A stretch of DNA of 64,000 bases from Bdellovibrionales bacterium (GTDB lineage Bacteria > Bdellovibrionota > Bdellovibrionia > Bdellovibrionales > UBA1609): contig JALZUR010000041.1 of the NCBI GenBank assembly GCA_023301025.1, forward strand, positions 1 to 64,000, given 5' to 3'. The notes below the pieces were generated by a model. It saw only the letters and a program-made list of their open reading frames with translations. It ran no database searches and was not told the origin of the DNA. Shown here in pieces: positions 221 to 64,000 of the stretch. The position numbers were made by a program, and so were the translations under genes. Position 1 is the first letter of the stretch. Every line of letters begins with the position of its first letter.

Positions 221-1417
221 TTAGTAAACAACCTCATGGCTTGCAGAATTTTTAATTCTTGGATCTTTAAGTGGGATCAAACTGTGTTTACTTAAAAAAC
301 TAAATACAGAAAACACATAAATACCAAAAAAACCAATAAGAGCTGTAATCTCAGGAATTGCAAAGTGAACATGATGCTCGTCAAAATTAGGGTAGATCAA
401 CCAAAAAAGATCAAGCACCTGTGTGAATATAATTAAGATTGATACTGCAGCAATATATTTTGGTGTTCGTTTGGCCCATCTTGGTAGTAGCAATAGAAAA
501 GGGACAATAAACTTAAATACAAGAAGAGACATTGAAACTACTGCCCAGGCCCCTTCGGACCTATGGTAAAAGAATATAGTCTCTTCGGGTATGTTGGCAT
601 ACCAGATAAGCATATATTGAGAGTAAGCAATGTAAGCCCAAAAAATTGTAAAGCCGAATAAAAACTTACCAACGTCATGTAGATGATCAATAGTCACCAT
701 GCCGTTGTACCAACCCTTTTTACAAATGTAGAGCATAAGTAAAACTGTTGCCGCAAACATAGCTTGCATAGATCCACTAAAAGTATAAATTCCAAAAATA
801 GTTGAAAACCAATGCGGCTCTAAACTCATAACTAAATCGACACTTAAAAATGAATAGCTAAGTGCAAAAAACATTATGAAAAACACAGAGTAAGGCACAA
901 GACTTTTAATGAGAGAGTCTTCACCTGTTTGATCTTGCTTCAATGAACCATCTGTAAGTTTTTTATAAAAGAAAAACCACCCTAAGAAAAAAACCAATGA
1001 ACGAATGATAAAAAACGTCATGTTTAAGTATGGAGCTTTGTGAGCGATCAAAGCATCATTAGCAACTAAATTTGGGTCAAGCCACTTATAGATTTCAGGG
1101 GCACCTATAATTAGAATCCCCATAAACAAAATAGAATAGGGAATGAATGCAGCTAAAGCTTCAAAGAGTCGTCTTATGTTTACAGACCACTGAGCGCTTG
1201 TTAAATGTTGCAATGATAAAAAGAATAGGCTTGATAGCGAAATACTTGTCACTAAGAAAAAAGCCATAAGGTAGGCCTGCCACGCTCTTTGAGCATCACC
1301 AAAAAGTGAGGCTATAAATCCAAATACACCGATAAGAAACATAACTAAGCATGTAACTTTACTTTTATTACTAAATTCAAAAGCATGAGGTTCTTTTAAA
1401 ACAATCTCTTTGTTCAT
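221..1417 (-). CDS. actF: Alternative Complex III membrane subunit ActF
   Basis: This is a 398-residue polytopic inner-membrane protein with about ten hydrophobic segments and no cofactor motif. It matches the second NrfD/PsrC-like integral subunit (ActF) of the ACIII quinol:cytochrome c oxidoreductase. Family assignment rests on size, membrane topology and its place as last gene of an actABCDEF order. The ATG is preceded by an AAAGGAA-like site and lies four bases after the actE stop, so the two are probably translationally linked. ActF is thought to pair with ActC in the membrane domain and contribute to quinol binding or proton movement, but its exact role is not settled. Confidence 0.88.
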   Translation of the reverse strand: MNKEIVLKEPHAFEFSNKSKVTCLVMFLIGVFGFIASLFGDAQRAWQAYLMAFFLVTSISLSSLFFLSLQHLTSAQWSVNIRRLFEALAAFIPYSILFMGILIIGAPEIYKWLDPNLVANDALIAHKAPYLNMTFFIIRSLVFFLGWFFFYKKLTDGSLKQDQTGEDSLIKSLVPYSVFFIMFFALSYSFLSVDLVMSLEPHWFSTIFGIYTFSGSMQAMFAATVLLMLYICKKGWYNGMVTIDHLHDVGKFLFGFTIFWAYIAYSQYMLIWYANIPEETIFFYHRSEGAWAVVSMSLLVFKFIVPFLLLLPRWAKRTPKYIAAVSILIIFTQVLDLFWLIYPNFDEHHVHFAIPEITALIGFFGIYVFSVFSFLSKHSLIPLKDPRIKNSASHEVVY

Positions 1418-1421
1418 GTTC

Positions 1422-1997
1422 TTATTTTCCTTTACCAGATGTTTTTTGTAGGCGTCTTACGTGTTTTACAATGGCCCATCTCTCATATTTATCAGGAACT
1501 TGAGATGCATAACCACCCATTAGACCCCAACCATTTGTTACAACATGAAAAAGGCGCCCATTTGAGTAGGACTTATATACACTTGTAACTAAACTTGGCG
1601 GGCGTTTTAGCATCTTATCTGCAATGCTTCCATTGCCTAATGCTTTATTGCCGTGGCAGATACCGCAGTAAATTTCATATTTGGTCTGGCCCACTTTTTC
1701 TAACTCTTTAAGACGCTCTTTTGTGAGTTCTTTACTTACACTGTACAAGGGACTTTTAAGTTTTTCAGCACTAGCCACATCAGATTTATCAAAAGGATAA
1801 GGCTCATGCTCTCTTGAAACAGATTTAACAGGAAGAGCTCTATTAAGCATTTCGCCATTTTTTCCACCTTCTTGAGGCTTTATTTGTGGGCCTTCCATCA
1901 TGTCTTGAATGAGTTCGATATTTGTTTGATCAGGGCCAGCCTGACAACCCAAAATAATAAGAGAAGATAAAACAACAACTGATTTAATTAAATTCAT
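1422..1997 (-). CDS. actE: Alternative Complex III monohaem cytochrome c lipoprotein ActE
   Basis: A 191-residue exported cytochrome. I start it at the ATG at 1997 (MNLIKSVVV...), nine residues into the ORF-track model, because GGAG lies upstream and this start gives a clean lipoprotein signal ending in the lipobox LIILGC. One haem motif, CGICH, lies in the C-terminal half, with a later Met-containing segment (NGWGLMGGY) as likely sixth ligand. In ACIII this subunit carries electrons from the iron-sulphur/pentahaem part toward the acceptor. It sits between actD and actF with very short gaps. Haem attachment would depend on the ResB/CcsA pair encoded next to this operon. Confidence 0.88.
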   Translation of the reverse strand: MNLIKSVVVLSSLIILGCQAGPDQTNIELIQDMMEGPQIKPQEGGKNGEMLNRALPVKSVSREHEPYPFDKSDVASAEKLKSPLYSVSKELTKERLKELEKVGQTKYEIYCGICHGNKALGNGSIADKMLKRPPSLVTSVYKSYSNGRLFHVVTNGWGLMGGYASQVPDKYERWAIVKHVRRLQKTSGKGK

Positions 1998-2001
1998 AAT
2001 T

Positions 2002-2538
2002 TTAATACTCCGAAACCTCATGGACTTCTACAGCACCCATTTCTTTCATCCAAGAAACAAGCTCTGAAGAAGAATAATTTTTATCTTTTTCAGAAACAAA
2101 AAGACCAAACTTATGAGATGTAAGATCAAGGTCAACAACAGGGGGGTCAATTTTTGGAAGCCCATTTGCTAAGATCATCGTCTTAACCGTAGCAAGAGCA
2201 GCAAATAAAATTGTAAGTTCAAAAATAATAGGGACAAAAGCAGGCAAAGACCACATCGGCTTACCACCTACGTTAATAGGCCAGCTCACAGCTGATGTCC
2301 ACCATGTAAACCAAAGACCTGCAGAACAACCTGCTGCTCCAGCAAAAAAAGTAACCCACGGAAGCCAAGATCTTTTGATGCCAACTGCCTCTTCCATACC
2401 ATGAACAGGATAAGGAGTGATTGCATCAAAATCTACAAAACCTTTTTCTCGTGTTTTATTTGCAGCATTTAAAATTTGAGACTCTTCTAAAAAGATTCCC
2501 ATAACTCCGCCTTTATTATTAGAATTTTGATCTGACAT
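2002..2538 (-). CDS. actD: Alternative Complex III subunit ActD (DUF3341)
   Basis: A 178-residue protein with two membrane helices in its middle (around the WVTFFAGAAGCSAGLWFTWW and LPAFVPIIFELTILFAAL segments) and soluble ends. This is the DUF3341 pattern of ACIII ActD. The start is placed at ATG 2538 (MSDQNSNN) because a GGGGG Shine-Dalgarno run lies just upstream; the GTG in the ORF track would overlap actC. With this start the gene begins one base past the actC stop, typical of tight coupling. ActD has no cofactor; it is a structural membrane subunit. Confidence 0.88.
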   Translation of the reverse strand: MSDQNSNNKGGVMGIFLEESQILNAANKTREKGFVDFDAITPYPVHGMEEAVGIKRSWLPWVTFFAGAAGCSAGLWFTWWTSAVSWPINVGGKPMWSLPAFVPIIFELTILFAALATVKTMILANGLPKIDPPVVDLDLTSHKFGLFVSEKDKNYSSSELVSWMKEMGAVEVHEVSEY

Positions 2539-2539
2539 C

Positions 2540-3907
2540 TTAGTGTCCCCCTTCTTTGCCAACACCTAAAACTGGTTTTACTTCAGCTATAGACACTGCA
2601 GGAACAAATTTTATGTAGAGTAGAAAAAGTGTAAAGAACATTCCAAAGCTACCAACAAGTGCACCAAAATCATAAAAAGTAAGATCAAAAATCCCCCAGT
2701 TCGCAGGTAAAAAATCTCTATGTAAAGATGTAACTGTAATAACATAGCGTTCAAACCACATCCCAATATTTACAAAAATAGAAATAACAAACATTACAGG
2801 GATTGATCTTCTTAAACGTCTCACCCAAAAAAGTTGAGGGATCACAACGTTACATGTAATCATAGTCCAATAAGCCCACCAGTAAGGTCCAAACGCTCTG
2901 TTAACAAAAGCATAGCCTTCATATTTTGAACCAGAGTACCAAGCAATAAAAAATTCTGAAGCATAAGCATAACCAACAAGCATTCCTGTGGTCATAATTA
3001 CTTTATTCATTAGCTCCATGTGATTGATGGTCACATAATCTTTAAAAACTGGCACAGCAATTCTTATAAGAGTCATTAATGTTACAACCATTGCAAAACC
3101 AGAGAAGATGGCCCCTGCAACGAAGTAAGGTGGAAAAATTGTAGTGTGCCAACCTGGAAGTTGGGCGACAGCAAAATCAAAGGATACAATACTGTGCACA
3201 GAAAGAACAAGTGGTGTCGATAAGCCTGCAAGTAGAAGGTATGTCATTTCATAATGACTCCAATGACGAGTGGCCCCTCTCCAACCAAGAGATAAAGCAC
3301 CATAGACTTTGTGTCTTATGTTTCTACCATCTTTTTTGGCCCTATCTCTTAGCGTTGCAAAATCTGGAACAAGTCCAATGTACCAAAAAACAATAGATAC
3401 AGTGGCATAAGTTGAAATCGCAAACACATCCCACAAAAGAGGAGATCTAAAGTTTACCCATAGAGGTCCACGCTGGTTGGGATAAGGAAACAGCCAAAAA
3501 GCTAGCCAAGGACGCCCCGTGTGTATAATTGGAAAAATACCTGCAGTAGCAACAGCAATAACAGTCATTGCTTCTGCAGAGCGTGCAATTGATGTTCTCC
3601 ACTTTTGCCTAAAGAGGTAAAGTACAGCTGAAATCAATGTTCCCGCATGTCCAATACCAACCCAAAAAACAAAAGTAACAATGTCAGTTCCCCAACCCAC
3701 AGGATGGTTAACACCCATTGTTCCCATACCAGTTGCGATAATAATACCAACAACAATCATATAAAATAAAAATAGCCCTTTGGCGCTTCCAAGCAGTGCA
3801 AACCACTTAGGGTGCGGGGCACTTTCGACTAAAGCCGAAATATCTTCCGTAACATCTTGAGAGGTTTTATCACCTTCAATCAGTGGCTTTTCAAGTAAAT
3901 CACTCAT
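2540..3907 (-). CDS. actC: Alternative Complex III NrfD-like membrane subunit ActC
   Basis: A 455-residue integral membrane protein of the NrfD/PsrC family, with about ten helices and a soluble N-terminal stretch of roughly 35 residues. NrfD proteins form the quinol-oxidising membrane anchor for an iron-sulphur partner; here that partner is ActB. The ATG overlaps the last four bases of actB (ATGA), so the two are coupled. Conserved-looking polar/aromatic segments such as [19 protein letters not shown] and the [11 protein letters not shown] region are typical of the family. It is the main candidate for the quinone site of the complex. Confidence 0.92.
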
Positions 3908-6900
3908 GAGTGAGCCTCCCCTTCATGACTAGTATTATCTTTATTGTGAGGAGATGGTTTTTTATGAGAGTTTTCACCTTCAGCATCACCATGTGGTTTT
4001 GCATGGTGACTGTCACCCGCAATAACCTTGTCTGTATTTATGATTTTTGTCATATACCTGACAGCAGGACCTACGTTTATCTCTTCTAAAAGAACATAAG
4101 TTCTTTTGTCTTTGAAGCGTTTTGAAACCTCTGATTCAGGATCATTCATATCTCCAAAGCTAATTGCGTTTGTTGGACATGTTTGTTGACAGGCTGTTTT
4201 TATTTCACCATCAAAAGGCTTTCTATCTTTAAGCTTAGCCTTACTTTTAACATCATTAATTTTTTGAATACAAAAAGTACACTTCTCCATCACCCCACGG
4301 GATCTAACTGTTACTTCAGGATTCAGAGCCATTTTTAAAGGTGATTCAATTTTTGAATAATTAAACCAATTGAAACGTCTAACCTTATAAGGGCAGTTGT
4401 TAGAACAGTAACGTGTTCCAACACAGCGGTTGTAAACCATATCATTTGTTCCTTCACTCCCATGAACAGTTGCTAAAACGGGACAAACCGTTTCACAAGG
4501 AGCATTATCACAATGCTGGCACATTACCGGTTGATGGACTGTTCTTGGGTTTTTAGGGTCTCCTTCAAAATAACGATCAATGCGAATCCAGTGCATTTCA
4601 CGTCCTTCTAAAGCGAGTTTTTTACCTACAACAGGAATATTGTTCTCAGCTTGGCAAGCCACAACACAAGCTGTGCAGCCCGTGCATGTAGAAAGATCAA
4701 CAGACATGCCCCACTTATGCCCTGGGTATTTGTGCTTAGACCAAAGAGAAATAACTTTGTGTCTGTGAATACCTGCAGAAGGGTCTTTTTTATACTCTTT
4801 AAATGAAGCTTCGTTTACAATGGCACGACCTTCCATTGAGTGATGACCTTGAACGTTGGCTAATGTATAATTTGTCCCAAGTTTTTTAACATTTAATTTA
4901 ACATCAGCGTGTTGCTCATCAAAAACTAAAGCGCATGCATTTTTTCCAACACCCTCACAAACTTTACCACCACCAACACGTCCGTAACCCATAGCTAAAG
5001 AAAATGTATTTAATTCTTGCCCCGGCTGAATGTGAACTGGAAGGCTAATGCTATAATCTTCTGATGAGTTTGATACTTTAACTTCAACTAAGTCACCTTC
5101 GCTTAGCTTCATTTCTTTAGCGTATTCAACAGATATAGAAAAGTAATTGTCCCAAACAATTTTTGTGACAGGGTCTGGCATCTCTTGAAGCCAAGACACA
5201 TTCGACAAACGACCATCTGCAAGGGCAGAAGATTTGTATACACTCAAAGTTGGGCCATCAGATTTTTTGTAAACTCCTTTAAAAGAGCCAACAAACGAAC
5301 GAACTGGACTTGTTTGATCAACAGAAGAGTTAAGACTTAAAACACCTTTCTGTAGGAGACCTATCCAAAACTCATCAAAAGTAGAGTAGCCAGACAGTGA
5401 GCCATAAGATTGATACCTGCTCTTCCATGTTTCTTTTACTAGATCATACCATGTGCTTTTTTCGCCCATCCATTGTAAAAGACTGTCCTCAAATGCTCTA
5501 GTGTCATAAAGAGGGCTAATAGTTGGTTGAGCCACAGTAAATATATTTTTAAGACTTTCAAACTCATTCCACTTTTCTAAAGCGTGATGATCAGGAAGAA
5601 CATAATGTGCGCGCATACCTGTTTCATCATTGCGATCACCTATGTAGACTACAGTTTTAACTTTATTGAAAATTTCTTTTAAAGCCTTGTGCGGATGATT
5701 GTAAAAAAGATTAGTGTCGTAGATAAAAAGAGTTTTTACTCTGTTTGCATTGATATCATTTATAAGGCTTTTTAAATCTTTGCTATCAGAATTGTAGGAA
5801 ACATAAGGAGCCTTTGTGTAATCAATAGTTTTACCATCATTACCTAAATACGAATTGATAAAATGAGTGGCTTTTTGAATCTCTAAAAAATCTTTGTTCT
5901 GACTGTCATGCCCAAAAGACATAACAATAGATTTGCCTCTTTTCTTTTTAAGTTCATCACTGACACTTCGTGCAAATTCAAGTTCTTCAGGACTTAATGA
6001 TTTAATTCCAGAAAATAAAGAGGCCGCTCTTGCATAAGAAGAAGAGTCTTTAAAATTAGAAATAACAGCACAAAGAAAAGATAAGTACTTTGAAGATGCT
6101 AAAGGAAGCCTTTCATCTGCGTTTGTACCTGTTAGAGTCATAGTTGACTCTACTTGATAAAGCCTTACTGGCTCACCAGCACTTGGATCACGTCTTTTTC
6201 CCCATGATTTTGATAAAGCTAAGCTTCCGTAAGCCTCATTTAAAAAGTCTGTACCTAGAGAAAATATAAATTCAGCATCTTCAACTTTATATCTAGGGAG
6301 TGACTCTGACTTTACACCATAAGCATCGCCAAAAGAGTCTTTAAACTTTGAAAAACCAGCACAACTCCACTTATAGTATTTGCCACCAAATTTACTAACA
6401 AAGCGAGTTATAAGATCACGCGAAGCTTTAGAAGGATTGTCACCTGATAAAACATAAGCGCCACCTTGAGAAAGCTTTTTAGAAAGCTCTCCATCCACTT
6501 TGCTCCAATCTGTTTTAACTGTGTCTCGGTTGTTTCTTTCTTCATTTAAAAGGTTTTGTAAAGGTGCTTTTAATCTGTCTGGGTCATATAAACTTAAGAG
6601 CTGAGCCTGGCCTCTTGCGCTTAAAGCTTCACCTACTGATGGGAAGAGGTCATTGCCTTCAAGTTTAATAGGTCTCCCCTCTCTAGTTTTAACAACTAAA
6701 GAGTAAACTTCACCAGCCTCAACAAGGCTTGAAGCATAGTGATTTGCAATACCATGAACTAGACCAACAGGTCTGTTTACAAAAGGAACAATTTTTTGAG
6801 CAGGTCGTCTAACACAACCAAAGGATCCAAGAGCTAAGCTTGCGCCCATAAGCTTTAGAAAATCTCGTCTAGCCCAACCCTCCTGTGACTCTTCCGATAG

Positions 6901-7008
6901 AGGGGAAGACATGAACTCTTTTTCAGCCAGGTCTTTAAACTCATCCGAGTTTGTCCACTGATCAAGGCTCTTCCAATATTTTTTGTTTTCGTTAATTGTT
7001 TTACTCAT
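3904..7008 (-). CDS. actB: Alternative Complex III molybdopterin-like/iron-sulphur subunit ActB
   Basis: About 1034 residues from ATG 7008 (MSKTINEN), preceded by AAGGG; the TTG three codons upstream is less likely. An N-terminal twin-arginine motif (RRDFLKLMG) sends the folded protein through Tat to the periplasm. Residues of roughly 60-700 resemble the molybdopterin oxidoreductase fold, but ActB proteins are known to lack the molybdenum cofactor, and I see no N-terminal 4Fe-4S cysteine set. The C-terminal third carries four ferredoxin-like cysteine groups ([41 protein letters not shown]...CQQTCP), matching three 4Fe-4S and one 3Fe-4S cluster. A His-rich tail ends the protein. Confidence 0.93.
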
Positions 7009-7097
7009 GTTAGGCAAACCCTTATTTTTTATCTTAACTACTTATTCTTTTTAAATTACTTTTTAATATTTTTTATTTACGCACAACTGCAACTTAT

Positions 7098-7682
7098 CTA
7101 ATAATGACAGGTTGAACAGTTGATCGGAGCTTGAGTATGCCCACCTTCTTTTAACTTTTTAAGATCTTCCTTTGAAATAGAATTGTCATAATCACCTCTG
7201 TGACAGTTCACACACCAACCCATTGAGAGATCTTGGTATTGATAAACCTTTTCCATCTCTTCGACTGGACCGTGACATGTATTACAATCTTTTTTTGCAT
7301 TTATATGAGCTGCGTGATTGAATTTCACATGATCTGGAAGTAGATGAACTTTTTGCCAAGCAATAGGTTTATTATCCGCATATTGTTTTTGTAGTTTTTG
7401 AATCCACTCTTTTCCAACACCTACAGACAAGTGGCAGTTCATACATATATTCATACTTGGGACTGATGAGTGTCTAGAAACTTCAACAGAAGTGTGACAG
7501 TACTTACAGTCAATACCGTATTGTCCAGCATGTTTTTTATGCGAAAAAGGTATTGGCTGAGTAGGCTCATAGCCTTTGTTGTAGCCAATGCTTAATTTAT
7601 TATTCGTAAGAAGGTATATAAAGACAACAAGTCCAAGGAGAAGACCTAGTCCTACAGCGCCACCGATTATTTTTTTAATCAT
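7098..7682 (-). CDS. actA: Alternative Complex III pentahaem cytochrome c ActA
   Basis: A 194-residue membrane-anchored cytochrome: one N-terminal helix (GGAVGLGLLLGLVVFIYLL), then a periplasmic domain with five CxxCH haem motifs (CKYCH, CMNCH, CNTCH, CVNCH, CSTCH), the last almost at the C-terminus. This is the ActA pattern of one helix plus five haems. The start is ATG 7682 (MIKKIIGG); the TTG in the ORF track only adds five residues. It is the first gene of the act operon, so the operon promoter should lie in 7683-8016. It wires electrons from ActB to the acceptor cytochrome. Confidence 0.92.
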   Translation of the reverse strand: MIKKIIGGAVGLGLLLGLVVFIYLLTNNKLSIGYNKGYEPTQPIPFSHKKHAGQYGIDCKYCHTSVEVSRHSSVPSMNICMNCHLSVGVGKEWIQKLQKQYADNKPIAWQKVHLLPDHVKFNHAAHINAKKDCNTCHGPVEEMEKVYQYQDLSMGWCVNCHRGDYDNSISKEDLKKLKEGGHTQAPINCSTCHY

Positions 7683-8016
7683 AACAAGTATATCCAATGT
7701 TGCAGTTTTAAGAAAAATTAAAATAGTTTTAATCTGTAATCAGATACTATCTATATTTTTTTTAAAGTGTTCGTAATATTATTAAACCTTTATCAATGAA
7801 CTATCAATACAAAGATTTATTATGGTCTATAATAAGAATGAGTTTCAAATTACAAAACCAACAACAAGAATAAAATGTATATCTGATTTTAAAAACGATA
7901 CAAAAATCGCTATAAGGCAGGCTCTAAAAGAAGATTGGAGCCTATAAAGATATATGCATTTTAAGTGAAAATAATTAACTATATTGCTTTATATTTTAGC
8001 ATTATTACTAGAGCTT
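7683..8016. other. 334-base intergenic region upstream of the act operon
   Basis: This A+T-rich stretch separates actA from the cytochrome maturation gene. It must contain the act promoter and probably the 3' end of the ccsA transcript. I see a 14-base dyad, ATCTG-TAAT-CAGAT, at 7732-7745, about 50 bases ahead of the actA start, and a plus-strand 41-codon ORF at 7822-7947 without a ribosome site. No convincing -35/-10 pair or terminator stood out among the many A/T runs. Confidence 0.5.
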
Positions 8017-47990: not shown

Positions 47991-50687
47991 TTAGAGCTGT
48001 CTTGAAACTTCTTCTTTTCTGTAAGCTTCAATAATATCACCAGATTTAAGATCGTTGTAATTTTCAATGCCAATACCACATTCGTAACCAGAAGCCACCT
48101 CTTTTGCATCATCTTTAAAACGCTTTAAGCTGCCAATTTTGCCTTCAAAAAGGATACGCCCCTGTCTGACCAAACGAACTAAATCACTTCTGTGAATATT
48201 ACCTTCTGTAACAAGAGAACCCGCAATAACACCCATCTTAGGAACAGAAAATGTTTCCCTAACCTCTGCCTTACCAGTACCTTTTTCAACAATATCTGGA
48301 TCTAATAAGCCTGACATAATAGCTTTTATGTCATCTACAAGCTCGTAAATTATTCTATAACTTTTAATCTCAACACTTTTTTCTTTAGCTCTGGAGCTTG
48401 CCTGAGAGTCAGGTCTTACATTAAAACCAACAACTACTCCGCCAGCCGTAGAAGCAAGTAAAACGTCTGACTCAGTTACACCACCTACAGCTGTATGTAT
48501 AAACTTAACTTTAACTTCATCAGTTTCAATCTTTTTAACCATACCTTTGATAGCTTCAATTGAACCAGCAACATCGGCTTTTAAAACAACAGCCAGTTCT
48601 TTAGCACCATCATCTTTTACGCGTAGCAAAAGCTCTTCGACAGAAACTTTTTTACTAGCTTCTTCAATGGCAATAAGTTCAGCCTCTTTTTTTCTAGTTT
48701 GCGCTAGTTCATTTGCTTTTTGATCACTTTCACAAATATCAAAACGATCTCCAGCTTTTGGGGTCTCAGGAAGCCCCATCACTTCGACTGGTACACCAGG
48801 ACCTGCCTCTTTTACGACTTTTCCTGTGTCAGACATAAGTCGTCTTATTTTACCTGCTACTAATCCTGCACAAATAGACTGACCTGTTTTTAATGTTCCA
48901 TCTTTTATGAGAAGAGTAGCAACATTACCTTTACCTTTTTCAACTTTACTTTCAATTACAACACCAGTTGCAGATTTTTTAGGATTAGATTTTAACTCCA
49001 AGAGCTCTGTATGAAGCCAAATACTTTCTAAAAGTTCTGTGATACCTGTTTTATTTAAGGCTGATACTTCATGAAATACAGTATCTCCACCCCAATCTTC
49101 AGGTACGAGTTCTTTATCAGAAAGCTGCTGTTTAATCTTATCAGGATTTGCACCCTCTTTATCAATCTTATTAACAGCAACAACTATTGGAACACCTGCA
49201 GCTTTTGAGTGACTTATAGCTTCTTCGGTCTGAGGCATCATACCGTCATCTGCGGCAACTACTAAAATAACAATATCAGTAATATTTGCGCCTCTGGCTC
49301 TCATTTCAGTAAAAGCTGCGTGACCCGGAGTATCTATAAAAGTGATTGGTTTATCATCTTCTACAAAGACCTGATATGCACCAATGTGCTGAGTAATTCC
49401 ACCAGCCTCACCACCTGCAACGTTTGCTTTTCTTATAGAATCAAGAAGAGTTGTTTTACCGTGGTCAACATGACCCATAACAGTTACAACTGGCGGGCGT
49501 ACCACAGGTTCTGCAGTGAGATCACCAAAAGCAACTGTGTCAGTAAAGTCTTCAGAAGTAACTAAAACATTTTCAGCCTCCCACTTAAATTCAGGAAGGA
49601 TTAAAGAAATTGTATCAAAATCCAATTCAGAATTCATGTTAACCATAGATCCTTGAGCCATAAGTGACTTCATTAGAAGTGGGGCTTTTACACCAATCTC
49701 TTGTGCTAGAGCACTTAAAGTCATTGTACCACTAACCTTAACGACTCGTTTATGAGCGGCAGGAGTAGTGATAGATGTCTTTTTTCCTGGAAGAGCAGAA
49801 AACTTTTTCTTTTTTGGTTGGAAAACCATTTCGCGCTTTCTAAAGTCAGCGGCCTTAAAGGCAGTGGGCTGGTTGAGTTGTTCTTTTCCAGTGTTTGCGC
49901 CCACCTTTTTCTTAGGAGCTTTATCATCTTTGCGATTCTTATCTGCATTAGGCATATCCACAGGAAAAACTGGAGATGGAGCAACATAGCCTGACCTTAA
50001 ACCTCTCTGTGCTGATTTAAGTCCTGGGGTCCTTGAACCATCAGGTTTTCTAACACCACCACTAACTTTTTTTAGGTCAATCTTACCAACAATATTTTTA
50101 CCAAAGACTCTTGCTTTTTTGACAGCAGGAGCAGGACTTGCAACCTTTTCATCTTTATCACCAGCTGTTTTTTCTTGAACTTCTGTTGTTTGATCAGCTG
50201 AAATCACTTCTTGGTCGGCTATCTGCGCCTCTTCTTGAAGCTTCGCAGCTATAGCTTCTTCAGCTTGCTTTTCTTTAGCTTCCTGAACATCAGAAGCTTT
50301 TCTTCTAATTACACCAGTTGAAGTAGCAGCTTTTTTTACTACAGCTTTCTTTTTTACTGCAGTTTCTGTGGGACTTTCTTTTGTAACACCAGATGAGACT
50401 TTTTTAACAGTAGTAGTTACTTTTTTCTTTGTGACTTTTTTCGTAGCTTTTTTCGTAGTCTTTTTCTTAGCTGTTTTCTTAGTAGCAGCTTTCTTCTTAG
50501 TCGTCTTCTTCTTCGTAACTTTTTTTACAGAAGAACCTTCGTCGCTAATCTTTGTTTTGATTAAAGACATTGTATCCTCATCCAAGGCAGACATATGACT
50601 CTTAACTGGTAAGTCCCACTTTTTTATCTTATCCATAAGAGCGATCGTCTCTAAGTTTAACTCTTTTGCAAACTGGTATACTTTCAT
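47991..50687 (-). CDS. infB: translation initiation factor IF-2
   Basis: An 898-residue IF-2, the GTPase that brings initiator tRNA to the 30S subunit. An IF2_N module starts it (MKVYQFAKELNLETIALMDKIK). Residues about 55-125 are a Lys/Thr/Ala-rich run resembling histone H1 tails. A long charged linker precedes the second IF2_N-like module, then the G domain: GHVDHGKTTLLDS, DTPGHAAF, NKIDK. Domains II, III and IV follow, ending in the tRNA-binding C2. The core is standard; only the Lys-rich linker is unusual. Confidence 0.97.
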   Translation of the reverse strand: MKVYQFAKELNLETIALMDKIKKWDLPVKSHMSALDEDTMSLIKTKISDEGSSVKKVTKKKTTKKKAATKKTAKKKTTKKATKKVTKKKVTTTVKKVSSGVTKESPTETAVKKKAVVKKAATSTGVIRRKASDVQEAKEKQAEEAIAAKLQEEAQIADQEVISADQTTEVQEKTAGDKDEKVASPAPAVKKARVFGKNIVGKIDLKKVSGGVRKPDGSRTPGLKSAQRGLRSGYVAPSPVFPVDMPNADKNRKDDKAPKKKVGANTGKEQLNQPTAFKAADFRKREMVFQPKKKKFSALPGKKTSITTPAAHKRVVKVSGTMTLSALAQEIGVKAPLLMKSLMAQGSMVNMNSELDFDTISLILPEFKWEAENVLVTSEDFTDTVAFGDLTAEPVVRPPVVTVMGHVDHGKTTLLDSIRKANVAGGEAGGITQHIGAYQVFVEDDKPITFIDTPGHAAFTEMRARGANITDIVILVVAADDGMMPQTEEAISHSKAAGVPIVVAVNKIDKEGANPDKIKQQLSDKELVPEDWGGDTVFHEVSALNKTGITELLESIWLHTELLELKSNPKKSATGVVIESKVEKGKGNVATLLIKDGTLKTGQSICAGLVAGKIRRLMSDTGKVVKEAGPGVPVEVMGLPETPKAGDRFDICESDQKANELAQTRKKEAELIAIEEASKKVSVEELLLRVKDDGAKELAVVLKADVAGSIEAIKGMVKKIETDEVKVKFIHTAVGGVTESDVLLASTAGGVVVGFNVRPDSQASSRAKEKSVEIKSYRIIYELVDDIKAIMSGLLDPDIVEKGTGKAEVRETFSVPKMGVIAGSLVTEGNIHRSDLVRLVRQGRILFEGKIGSLKRFKDDAKEVASGYECGIGIENYNDLKSGDIIEAYRKEEVSRQL

Positions 50688-56045: not shown

Positions 56046-58052
56046 ATGATTTTTTATAAATTCACTGTATTTTTAACTAAAGCCTATAATAAAGTTTTAA
56101 CTTCTAGAACAGACAAAAAAATACGATTGGGACAAAACAACTTACTTAGAAGTATTACAGTCTTTTGTTTTATTAATCTAAATTTATTTTCAAGCCTTGC
56201 AAAAGCCTCTGAGGATTCATGTTTAAAACTACTAGCAAAACAAAAAGCGACAAATGTAATGGCTTTTCCTATAAAAAAACAACTGACCAGAAAGGAACAG
56301 CTCCTTGCAAAAGCAGCTGAATTAAGAGAAATCAACGAGTCAGGAGCTAATATCGCTTTGGTATCTCCTGATGTTTTAACTGATACAATTGCAGCGTTAG
56401 AACAGATGGCTAGGGAACCCGGTGTAAATGAAAAGCATCAAAAACAACTAGATGTAGCACCTTTAGTAGCAGCGAGTAAAGCTGGGGACTTAGCCGTAGT
56501 TAGAAGCATTATTGAAGCTGGTGAAATCAATATCAATCAAGAAAATACAGAAAAAGTTAACGCTCTTTATGCAGCTGCTGCAGAAGGTCACATACATATC
56601 GTTAGCTTTTTATTAGAGCAAGATTTAGTAAATGCAAGTTTAATCGAGACTTCTATTGATCCATTAGTTATGGCTTTAGAAAATGACCATATAGATGTTT
56701 TTAAGCTTCTTTTAAACCACAAAACTTCACGCTTAATTGTGTCCAACAGTAAAAACAATAACGTTTTAATGATCGCATTAGAAAAAAATCTTATAGATGT
56801 TGCATATCTAATTCTAGATCAAAAAGATAAAGGCTTAGATCTAAACCTAGTGAGCAGAGATGGTGATACAGCTTTAACACTTGCAATAAAAGGCAGGCAT
56901 TTTGAGTTTGCAGAAGAGCTCATTAAAAACGAAGACATTCAAATCAACCCACAAAATTTTTCAGAAAAATCAGCATTAGTCACTGCGGTTGAATTAGGGA
57001 AATATGAATTTGCAAAAAAACTTATTTTAGAAAAACAAGCTGATATCAATGCTAAGCACCTCGGTAATAAGACAGTTTTACTTGCGGCAGCAGAAAATGG
57101 TGACTTGCTATTTGTAAATTTCCTTTTAAATCGAGGTGAAATACAAATAAATGAGCAATCCCATAAAGGCTATACAGCACTTATACAAGCCCTAGAAAGT
57201 GGTTTTACTGATGTCTCTAAAGTACTACTCGAACACGCTAATTTAAATGTATTGCCAGCAAAAATAAATTCAAAAAATGCTTTGGTTATAGCATTAAAGA
57301 ATAGAGACTGGAATCTTGTAGATCTTATATTAAATAAACAAACAGAATTAAAATCTCAAGTTTTAGGACATGCTTTGGTCAATGCAAGTGCTACAGGAGA
57401 GTTAACAGCTCTAAAGTTTATCTTAAATCAAACTGAAACAGATGTTAACTTTAAAAGTTTTAGAGAAAAGACTGCTTTACTTGAAGCTAGCTATAATTTG
57501 CATTTAGATATTATTAAAATTTTAATGGCCAAAGAAAAAATACAAGTAAACCTTGCCGGTGAAGGTGGGCATCCCGCACTTCATCATGTAATTTATGGAA
57601 AGTCTAAAGCCTCTTTTTTAGACACATTTAATATAGAACTTGGAACCGCTAAAATTGATACTGCAGATAAGATTGTAGCACTTTTACTTTCTAACAATGA
57701 CATTGATGTAAACATCTTTGATCAAGAAAAAGGATCTATGAGAACAGCACTTATGATTGCTACTGAACAAAACTATGTAGATACAGTAAGGCTTCTCTTA
57801 GAACATCAAAAAACCAACGTAAATCTACAAAGTATAGAAGAACAGTGGTCTCCACTAATGATGGCAATTATTAACGACAACCTTGAACTTGTTAAACTTT
57901 TTTTAGACCATAGAGACATTGATCTAGATCTTAAGGATGCAGACGATAACAGTGTTTTAGATTTAGTTCATGAAATTTCACAAGATAATGAATATTCATC
58001 ACCAGTACTTAAAGAGATACGAAGATTAATATTTCTTAAGATGAATGAATAA
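56046..58052 (+). CDS. exported ankyrin-repeat protein, about 14 repeats
   Basis: A 668-residue protein. A hydrophobic segment at about residues 35-53 (ITVFCFINLNLFSSLAKA) looks like a signal sequence with an unusually long basic N-region, so the repeats are probably outside the cytoplasm. From about residue 135 to the end there are some 14 ankyrin repeats of 33-36 residues, each with a TALxxAxxxG-type helix and an I/VN-rich loop (for example YTALIQALESGFTDVSKVLL). No catalytic domain. Ankyrins bind protein partners; which one is unknown. It ends two bases from the PP2C gene on the other strand. No ribosome site is seen at its ATG, so the start is unsure. Confidence 0.82.
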   Translation: MIFYKFTVFLTKAYNKVLTSRTDKKIRLGQNNLLRSITVFCFINLNLFSSLAKASEDSCLKLLAKQKATNVMAFPIKKQLTRKEQLLAKAAELREINESGANIALVSPDVLTDTIAALEQMAREPGVNEKHQKQLDVAPLVAASKAGDLAVVRSIIEAGEININQENTEKVNALYAAAAEGHIHIVSFLLEQDLVNASLIETSIDPLVMALENDHIDVFKLLLNHKTSRLIVSNSKNNNVLMIALEKNLIDVAYLILDQKDKGLDLNLVSRDGDTALTLAIKGRHFEFAEELIKNEDIQINPQNFSEKSALVTAVELGKYEFAKKLILEKQADINAKHLGNKTVLLAAAENGDLLFVNFLLNRGEIQINEQSHKGYTALIQALESGFTDVSKVLLEHANLNVLPAKINSKNALVIALKNRDWNLVDLILNKQTELKSQVLGHALVNASATGELTALKFILNQTETDVNFKSFREKTALLEASYNLHLDIIKILMAKEKIQVNLAGEGGHPALHHVIYGKSKASFLDTFNIELGTAKIDTADKIVALLLSNNDIDVNIFDQEKGSMRTALMIATEQNYVDTVRLLLEHQKTNVNLQSIEEQWSPLMMAIINDNLELVKLFLDHRDIDLDLKDADDNSVLDLVHEISQDNEYSSPVLKEIRRLIFLKMNE

Positions 58053-60265: not shown

Positions 60266-60339
60266 AGGTGACTCAACATAAGTTGATCTACCTACTAAAT
60301 GACAAAAAAAAGAATGAAGATCAAATAACGGAGATCAAA

Positions 60340-61227
60340 ATGAAAAATTTAATTTTAATATTTACACTGCTTATTGTCTCAGGTTGTGTTCTTACACCGA
60401 CAAATCAAATACCCATAGACATCGAAGGGTCGATCGAACCAAGACTTTATAGAGGTTCAAGATCAAGTGTAAGAGTTTGGCTTCACCCTCAATATGCTTT
60501 AGAGGATGCCTACTTTATTGCCCAAGGTCACTGTGCTAGATGGGATCTGTGGGCTAACCCTTACAATAGCAACTGGGCCATCAACAGTCCGGATCCAAGG
60601 TTTTTAAATTATCACTGTGTAAGAAACCGTCCGATACTCGCCTACCCTCACATAAGAAGACCAGGTGTTAGAAGACCTATTCAAAGAAGAGGAACTTTTA
60701 GTCCTAGAAATCAAAGACCGAGAATAAACAATCGAAACAGAATTCGAACACCTAGAGTTACTCCAAGAACACAACCTAGAGCAATACCAAAAAGACGATC
60801 AACATTTGGAACATCAAACACCAGACGACCAACCTTTGGCACAACTAGCCCTACGATTGCAAACCGTAGACCAGTAAGACCACCATCAATCACTACTCGC
60901 CCTTCGGTTAATCGTCCCGGACGCCCAACGCTAACGACACGACCTAAATACTCTCAAAGACATCCGACTCTAAGACCTAATATTAGACGTGAAGCAAATA
61001 GAGATTATAGACCAAAAAGAAGATCTGTCTTAAAAACTCCGACACGTACTAAAAAGGGCTATAGCCAAACTCAAAGAACTAATAAACTAACAAAGCGTCT
61101 GTCTAAGCGACCTGTAATAAAAACAAGAGGAAAGCTTAAGACTAAAACTAAAAATAGAAGATCGACTAACAAAAAAAGATCTAAAAAAGAAAGTAGAAAC
61201 TCAAAAAGAAAGCTTATTAGCATCTAA
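60340..61227 (+). CDS. Arg/Pro/Thr-rich lipoprotein
   Basis: A 295-residue lipoprotein. Start ATG 60340 (GGAG upstream; the ORF-track start lacks a signal) gives a signal with lipobox LIVSGC. A short folded-looking part (residues about 35-110) contains two Cys and several Trp. From about 110 to the end it is extremely rich in Arg, Pro, Thr, then Lys, with no Asp and few Glu, and is surely disordered. Such a chain could bind lipopolysaccharide, nucleic acid or the acidic neighbour; this is inference. Its stop abuts the stop of the convergent DUF1552 gene with no gap and no terminator. Confidence 0.75.
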   Translation: MKNLILIFTLLIVSGCVLTPTNQIPIDIEGSIEPRLYRGSRSSVRVWLHPQYALEDAYFIAQGHCARWDLWANPYNSNWAINSPDPRFLNYHCVRNRPILAYPHIRRPGVRRPIQRRGTFSPRNQRPRINNRNRIRTPRVTPRTQPRAIPKRRSTFGTSNTRRPTFGTTSPTIANRRPVRPPSITTRPSVNRPGRPTLTTRPKYSQRHPTLRPNIRREANRDYRPKRRSVLKTPTRTKKGYSQTQRTNKLTKRLSKRPVIKTRGKLKTKTKNRRSTNKKRSKKESRNSKRKLISI

Positions 61228-61824
61228 TTATGTAATAATTGGTAGCCTATCACTCAAACTGTTCATAAGAGCGTTTGAGTAGGAGCTTGTGAACTGATTA
61301 AGACTAGAGTCACTGTAGCCTGGTCTATTGTTTCTTTCATACTCAGCTCTTGTATAACCATAACCTTGTAACATATTAGCCCAAAATCTTTGAATCGGCA
61401 CACCAGGCCTTCTACCTGGAAAAGCGTTACTTCTTAAACCCATATTTGCAAGATTTCTATAGTCAACATAGTTGCCTGTATTAAAAAATCCTGACAAAGA
61501 TCCAAAAGTTATAAGTGCAGCATTGTCATGTTGATGTGTTTGAGGTCCACACTCAAAGGTCCAAGTCACTAAAGAGTTGTCTAAAATAGAACCTGTTTGT
61601 CCATTCACAGTAACTGCGTTGAGCTTTGAAACTAAATTCGCAACAACTCTTTGTGCATTAATTCTATAACCTGTATTTTGAAACAACAATGCACTTGCAG
61701 TTGAATCAGCTCTGTGTGCAATTTGCTCATGATAATTCCCACTATAACCCTGAGGCGCAGGATCTAAAAGCATTGTTGCAATACGAGTTGCACCACAAGA
61801 AAATGCAGCGACAGTTAAATCCAC
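61228..61824 (-). CDS. C-terminal DUF1552 fragment, GTG-initiated ORF
   Basis: The distal part of the same frame as listed in the ORF track, 198 residues from an internal GTG. No ribosome site is seen at that GTG, and family sequence continues upstream of it (NIEASELLVDLTVAAFSCG), so independent translation is unlikely. Confidence 0.35.
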   Translation of the reverse strand: MDLTVAAFSCGATRIATMLLDPAPQGYSGNYHEQIAHRADSTASALLFQNTGYRINAQRVVANLVSKLNAVTVNGQTGSILDNSLVTWTFECGPQTHQHDNAALITFGSLSGFFNTGNYVDYRNLANMGLRSNAFPGRRPGVPIQRFWANMLQGYGYTRAEYERNNRPGYSDSSLNQFTSSYSNALMNSLSDRLPIIT

Positions 61825-62103
61825 TAGAAGCTCCGAAGCTTCTATGTTTCCAGCTTTTCCTATGTCAGCAGGATGCGAACTGTAAATAACATTTGCAGTA
61901 TTTGGGCCTGTTACATCAGAACATGAATTTACAACATTTTTATATTTATTCTGTATATCGAAAAGGTTTTGTACCGTTTCTTCAACTCTTTTTTTATCTT
62001 CACTAGAAATCCTTCTAGACTCTGTAGAGTTACCATTTAAAAGCCTATTGTAATCTTCATAAACACGATCTACGAGAAAGAACTTTTTATTTCGAGCTTC
62101 GTT

Positions 62104-62811
62104 TTAAGCATTGTTTGATTGATTTTCAAATTTGCTAAATACCGCATTGTAAATGCGGTCAATACGGTCTCCAGTTCTAGGTAAAAAAGAACCATTAGCA
62201 GCGTTAGTCATAAGAAAATTTGAATTGTTAATTGTTCTAACAGAATTATCTTCAGGGTTAGGATAAAACTTAGAAGAGTTTCCTAAAAATTGATCTATGG
62301 TAGGCCACTGGCGATTAGCCAAAGCTGTTCGAGATGGAGCACTTGCAATAGCAACTTTAGCTAAGTTTCCGGCATAAACACCATTGTTATGACCTGAGTA
62401 AAAGGTTCCAAGATCAATACCTTCAAAAAGGTTCATCTTGGGAAGAAGAGGATTCATAAAAGAACCCAGAATATAAGATAGTCTGGCTTGGTTGTTATCG
62501 ACATTTCCACCAGGGTGATTAGGCTGAGTAGAGAGTAAAGTATTTAAGCTTGCATGTCTTATAGCGTGTCCATTAAGTAAAGTGGCATTTGTTAATAGAG
62601 CATTGTTATTTGGATTAAGAATAGTTTGAGGGGCAAGATCCCCTTCTCTTCTGTATCCACCATGGGGAGAACCAAACATAACAAGGTATTGTAGCTTCGG
62701 AAGAGTCTGAGCATGAGCTTTTGATAAAAGTGAAGGCAAAATTGGAAGAGAGAGTAAACTTCCTCCAAGCCCCTGCAAAAAATATCGACGGTTTAATTTA
62801 TCATATTTCAT
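62104..62811 (-). CDS. N-terminal DUF1552 fragment (235 residues)
   Basis: The part of the broken DUF1552 gene that can be translated as it stands: Tat signal, then the domain start (LPKLQYLVMFGSPHGGYRRE). It ends after NQSNNA at the TAA. Without the C-terminal half, the domain would be incomplete. Confidence 0.6.
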   Translation of the reverse strand: MKYDKLNRRYFLQGLGGSLLSLPILPSLLSKAHAQTLPKLQYLVMFGSPHGGYRREGDLAPQTILNPNNNALLTNATLLNGHAIRHASLNTLLSTQPNHPGGNVDNNQARLSYILGSFMNPLLPKMNLFEGIDLGTFYSGHNNGVYAGNLAKVAIASAPSRTALANRQWPTIDQFLGNSSKFYPNPEDNSVRTINNSNFLMTNAANGSFLPRTGDRIDRIYNAVFSKFENQSNNA

Positions 62812-62830: not shown

Positions 62831-64000
62831 TTATAGTTTTCTTTTAAAGAATTCTGGTTGTGTAGGTATATATTTTATAGTTTCAACAATACTACCTGTT
62901 GAGATCATCTGTTTATAAAGATTTCTAGTAGCACAATCATTTTGCCCAATTCTATACAATTGCTTGTTTGCAAAACTCCAAAGATTTGAATTAAAACAAG
63001 CAACTGCTCTTGGGCTTACTGCTAAGTTTAAATTTAACTCACGACTTCCGCTCAAAGTAGCGTTTATAATTTCATCCCCTAGGAAAGCTTGTGTGTTTGA
63101 CCTAACAGGCTTTACTGTTAAAATTTGGCCACTATTGTCACTCTCTTCAGGATAGTAAATATCCTCTTCCAATCGGTATCTGCCTAAAGGGTCAAAACCT
63201 TCGAATACAAAACCAAAAGGATTAATTAAACTCTTGTGACAACCAATACAGCTTGTGCCAGGAATTTCAGTAATACTTTCTACATACTCACGACCACTAT
63301 GAGTGTCCAAAATTACTGCATCATCAGGTGCACCTGTATCTGCGGGTGCAGGCAAAGACCCACATAAAAAATCATTGTAAACCTTAACACCTCTGTGAAT
63401 AAGAGATGTAGATCCGTAACCGCTAATAAGCTGTTGGGCTCTAGTTAAGATTCCTGTACGTTCTGCAGATGGTGATCGTACTAGACTTGCTTGCGCAAAG
63501 CTTCCATTCCAAATCTGTGTCCCATAAATTTCAGCTAAATCTGTAGTTCTTGGAAAAACATAATCAAGGGTCATGAGTTCTTCATAGCCACCATTAATCT
63601 CCCACATAACATAATGCAAATAATCATAAACCTCTTGAATCATACTTTGCTTTAAATTTGCAGGACTTGTTAAATTGCCAAGCTCTGCAAACATGCTATT
63701 TAGTGAGTTTACATCATCTCTAAAATCATGAGTGTGAGATGTTTTAAAAATCTGATTAGCCAAAGCTATAGTGAGTCTACTTTTTGTTAATGGCAAATTA
63801 ATAAGACGTTCTGTTTGGTCTTTAATCTCTTGATCAGTCAAAGCACCATCACTTTCAGCTGCAAGCAGCAGATCATTATCAGAAGTGCTTTGAGTTAAAA
63901 AATATGACAGTCGTGAGGCTTTTTCAAACGACGTTAATAAAACTTCTCCATTATTAAGATCAGAACTTCCGACTTCTAGATGATAGATAAATTTTGGAGA
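62831..64000 (-). CDS. DUF1592/DUF1588/DUF1585 protein, 5' end outside the window
   Basis: The frame is open to the right edge, so the ORF-track start (TTG 63841) is internal. The upstream codons encode EKASRLSYFLTQSTSDNDLL, typical of the DUF1592 domain. Next come a DUF1588 domain with the haem-like CIGCH motif in GTSCIGCHKSLINPFGFVFE, and a DUF1585-like end (PRAVACFNSNLWSFANKQLYR). Full-length relatives carry an N-terminal DUF1587/cytochrome-like part, presumably beyond 64000. These exported proteins usually stand next to a DUF1552 gene, as here (19 bases apart). The CIGCH could bind haem c, but function is not known. Confidence 0.85.
   Translation of the reverse strand, partial: SPKFIYHLEVGSSDLNNGEVLLTSFEKASRLSYFLTQSTSDNDLLLAAESDGALTDQEIKDQTERLINLPLTKSRLTIALANQIFKTSHTHDFRDDVNSLNSMFAELGNLTSPANLKQSMIQEVYDYLHYVMWEINGGYEELMTLDYVFPRTTDLAEIYGTQIWNGSFAQASLVRSPSAERTGILTRAQQLISGYGSTSLIHRGVKVYNDFLCGSLPAPADTGAPDDAVILDTHSGREYVESITEIPGTSCIGCHKSLINPFGFVFEGFDPLGRYRLEEDIYYPEESDNSGQILTVKPVRSNTQAFLGDEIINATLSGSRELNLNLAVSPRAVACFNSNLWSFANKQLYRIGQNDCATRNLYKQMISTGSIVETIKYIPTQPEFFKRKL

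Follow-up and report, generated by a model that had tools for sequence, protein, structure and literature searches.

The window analysed here (the whole stretch of 64,000 nucleotides) carries near its end a DUF1552 gene that is interrupted by a single internal stop codon, together with the DUF1592/DUF1588 gene that precedes it on the same strand (Table 1). The initial annotation had described two open reading frames lying in one frame without giving the strand of the gene, which is minus. Reading the minus strand of 62811–61228 confirmed the shared frame: it begins at 62811 with ATG and runs through 235 sense codons to TAA (62106–62104); another 291 sense codons lead from there to the terminal TAA (61230–61228). 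The stretch between the two listed frames (61825–62103) is open and family-coding as described, but is 279 and not 278 bases long; it is absent from the list of open reading frames because it contains no ATG, GTG or TTG. No further stop or indel was found across the 1,581 bases of the joined frame, in agreement with the claim that the internal TAA is the only defect. The same TAA is seen in the source genome assembly, which constitutes the same data and not an independent confirmation.

Table 1. Features of the interrupted DUF1552 gene and its partner.
Feature	Position	Strand	Basis
DUF1552 (HXXSHH, PF07586) gene with a single internal stop	61228–62811	-	527-codon frame and Pfam match
Internal TAA (residue 236 in the joined frame), within the family's variable linker	62104–62106	-	Frame reading and family alignment
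Upstream part, 235 codons: twin-arginine signal (NRRYFLQGLGG...AHAQ) and family-invariant histidine H141	62107–62811	-	
Downstream part, 291 codons: family-conserved C297, C339, H361, H366 and H426	61231–62103	-	
Partner DUF1592/DUF1588 gene (PF07631 = PSD4, PF07627 = PSCyt3)	62831–64000, continuing past the window end	-	Pfam match

To both sides of the TAA the sequence has the properties of one coding region. The chance of finding 291 open codons at this composition is P ~2e-9, the codon log-odds are equal before and after the stop (0.155 and 0.165 per codon, respectively), and GC content by codon position as well as codon usage are alike on either side. When searched against PF07586 (curated cut-off 30 bits), the joined frame matched with 1.3e-10 and 41.8 bits over residues 123–371, a match that spans residue 236, the position of the stop. 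The downstream part alone matched the later half of the profile (positions 168–289; 9.2e-8, 32.5 bits), while the upstream part alone stayed below the PF07586 threshold in the Pfam search. The two parts are collinear along the family alignment, and the search of the 527-codon frame proposed in the initial annotation thus placed both halves, in order, in one family. The four family-invariant histidines H141, H361, H366 and H426, whose columns hold histidine in 31–32 of 32 aligned proteins, are all in place, three of them beyond the stop together with two conserved cysteines. Agreement with the family-conserved columns (25 of 29 before the stop, 27 of 34 after it) is inside the range of intact relatives. 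The two listed open reading frames are parts of one DUF1552 gene, and they should be recorded in the annotation as one interrupted gene rather than as two short ones. NCBIfam searches gave no match for the DUF1552 gene or for its DUF1592/DUF1588 partner, and a PDB sequence search found nothing. A structure predicted for the read-through protein together with two homologues reached a pLDDT of 30 and was set aside.

Residue 236 lies between conserved blocks, in a linker whose length ranges between a handful of residues and over 60 and which is the most variable and indel-rich part of the family. A changed or wrong residue here would have little consequence. The closest DUF1552 proteins by sequence are encoded by an Archangium sp. 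MAG (L032, 34% identity) and a Myxococcales MAG (L033, 31% identity; its linker is proline-rich), and these DUF1552/HXXSHH relatives share with the present gene the twin-arginine start, the invariant histidines and cysteines, the length class and an adjacent DUF1592 gene. They differ from it in lacking a stop in the linker, as do all other PF07586 matches of the relatives: among 108 PF07586 copies in the comparison with 148 related genomes, ours is the only one with an internal stop.

The partner gene, which had been described as intact as far as seen, is complete at 599 aa when read beyond the window on contig C41 (L034:6832–8631), and its start appears lipoprotein-like. It ends 19 nt upstream of the DUF1552 start on the same strand, and the two genes probably form an operon. 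Both families were present in 41 of the 148 related genomes; a same-strand PF07631 match was found within 3 kb of 98 of the 108 PF07586 matches and was located upstream, as here, in 93. This conserved adjacency marks the DUF1592–DUF1552 pair as an old unit. PF07586 itself is patchily distributed (43 of 148 relatives) and hence dispensable, and the source genome (2.03 Mb) holds a single copy. PSCyt3 genes are reported usually to adjoin a family of genes of unknown function (PMC5615132). Compared with the planctomycete-specific cytochrome c gene pairs, in which PSCyt3/PSD4 (DUF1588/DUF1592) genes stand beside such a neighbour, the partner here likewise has PSD4 and PSCyt3, but the pair appears to lie outside the Planctomycetes/Verrucomicrobia group and one of its genes is interrupted. 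On the other side of the DUF1552 gene, a convergent lipoprotein-like gene (60268–61227) with a low-complexity C-terminal region rich in Arg, Lys, Thr and Pro has a stop codon that abuts the DUF1552 stop codon (61227/61228).

The best explanation of the interruption, to which we give a probability of about two in three, is that an ordinary chromosomal gene, encoding a DUF1552 protein exported by the Tat route, has very recently acquired a nonsense mutation. A lone stop with equal coding signal on either side counts toward recent loss. Given this sequence, 3–4% of random substitutions create a stop, and a further stop would be expected (95%) if the lesion were older than ~0.04–0.06 substitutions per site, a bound that falls to ~0.014 when indels are counted at an assumed 0.1 per substitution. 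If the TAA is a real mutation, it is therefore young, since neither a second stop nor an indel is present. Its age and any relaxed selection are not directly measurable, as the nearest homologue is only ~31–34% identical: no genome of the same genus was among the 148 relatives searched, and the contig scan for homologues returned two relatives and no close strain.

The same data would be produced by a base-call, consensus or assembly error in an intact gene. We regard such an error as possible but clearly less probable than a mutation. It would fit an isolated defect in a draft assembly that consists of 55 contigs and the lack of any other sign of decay in coding signal or conserved columns, and a single wrong base would suffice, with 155 of the 526 codons of the joined frame one substitution away from a stop. 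The assembly, however, is not visibly error-rich. In a survey covering 116 kb of contig C41, this gene was the only place where a stop without a nearby start divides two long coding segments of the same frame. Three other positions in the survey (40968, 43855 and 68767) turned out to be ordinary neighbouring genes sharing one frame. The survey also listed short candidates at 86172, at 100141 and at 48721, the last on the plus strand inside a gene annotated on the minus strand.

A second argument against a sequence error comes from two relatives in which the gene pair has been damaged independently, showing that real loss also occurs, if these copies are not themselves errors. In L022, from a one-contig genome (G084), the DUF1552 gene is split between frames 1 and 2 by a single frameshift (2763–2765), and both of its parts are well conserved, with 35–40% identity to homologues. 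A second damaged pair is found in L070 (G031:C18, 3251–6367), where DUF1592 contains one TAA at 4364. The DUF1552-like partner begins in frame 3 with a Tat-like sequence but carries on in frame 2, apparently through a frameshift close to the gene start. PF07586 does not detect this partner, and its similarity to DUF1552 is weak (best BLAST 0.005), its position and Tat-like start being the main indications that it may be a DUF1552 gene; the same genome has 14 other PF07586 matches. Assembly errors could also account for the damage in L022 and L070. Repeated damage to the gene pair in relatives nevertheless favours ordinary loss. Among the three explanations offered in the initial annotation, recent loss and base-call error thus both stand, the former favoured by these damaged copies, while the third, rare stop read-through, found no support.

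Read-through at a useful level, yielding some full-length protein with a functional or regulatory role, would account for the preserved frame downstream of the TAA, and it is reported that prokaryotic genes commonly contain in-frame stops that appear to be under purifying selection (PMC7918605), which counts in its favour. Several results make it very unlikely. TAA is the main terminator: of 31 genes counted in the window, 20 end with it. Neither class I release factor gene is missing or interrupted (PF00472 matches two genes of 359 codons, presumably RF1 and RF2), and the 33 tRNA genes detected include no anticodon that reads TAA. An Rfam search detected no element, folding of the 123 nt that begin at the stop is no more stable than that of shuffled sequences (z +0.96), and the other 107 PF07586 matches in the 148 relatives have no internal stop, at this site or elsewhere. 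A more elaborate version, in which the TAA is tolerated or used, with low-level read-through in the flexible linker maintaining a small amount of full-length protein, a secreted N-terminal fragment as the main product and dosage control of the DUF1592/DUF1552 pair, is if anything even harder to credit. Codon reassignment was ruled out by the use of TAA as the usual terminator and by the release factor genes, and frameshifting was rejected because no change of frame separates the two parts.

Least probable of all is that the gene is now two, its downstream part being made separately by reinitiation as half of a split protein. The stop does fall between two conserved blocks, in the variable linker, where a split would be least harmful, but it is followed by 93 codons without ATG, GTG or TTG. 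The first standard start, a GTG at 61824, lies beyond the conserved DRV.DY...DK block and C297, the downstream part would lack a Tat signal, and no relative is split at this site.

Under the favoured reading of a recent nonsense mutation, translation would terminate at codon 236 and release an N-terminal fragment. Without most of the invariant histidines and cysteines this fragment is predicted to be inactive, while the upstream DUF1592 protein would still be produced, and the time elapsed since the mutation would have been too short for the remaining frame to decay. The event is ordinary, and nothing points to a special decoding mechanism: like other recent single-lesion bacterial pseudogenes, the gene combines one nonsense mutation with a preserved frame, and no difference from them was found; the damaged copies in L022 and L070 are comparable. 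If the loss is real, it represents a small natural case in which a tight pair of uncharacterised genes has lost one member while the other is still intact, and it could help in asking whether DUF1592 and DUF1552 proteins need each other.

Elsewhere in the window, inspection by eye pointed to a long ankyrin-repeat-like protein of 668 aa (56046–58052) and to a cluster resembling an alternative complex III (Act) respiratory operon (221–7697).
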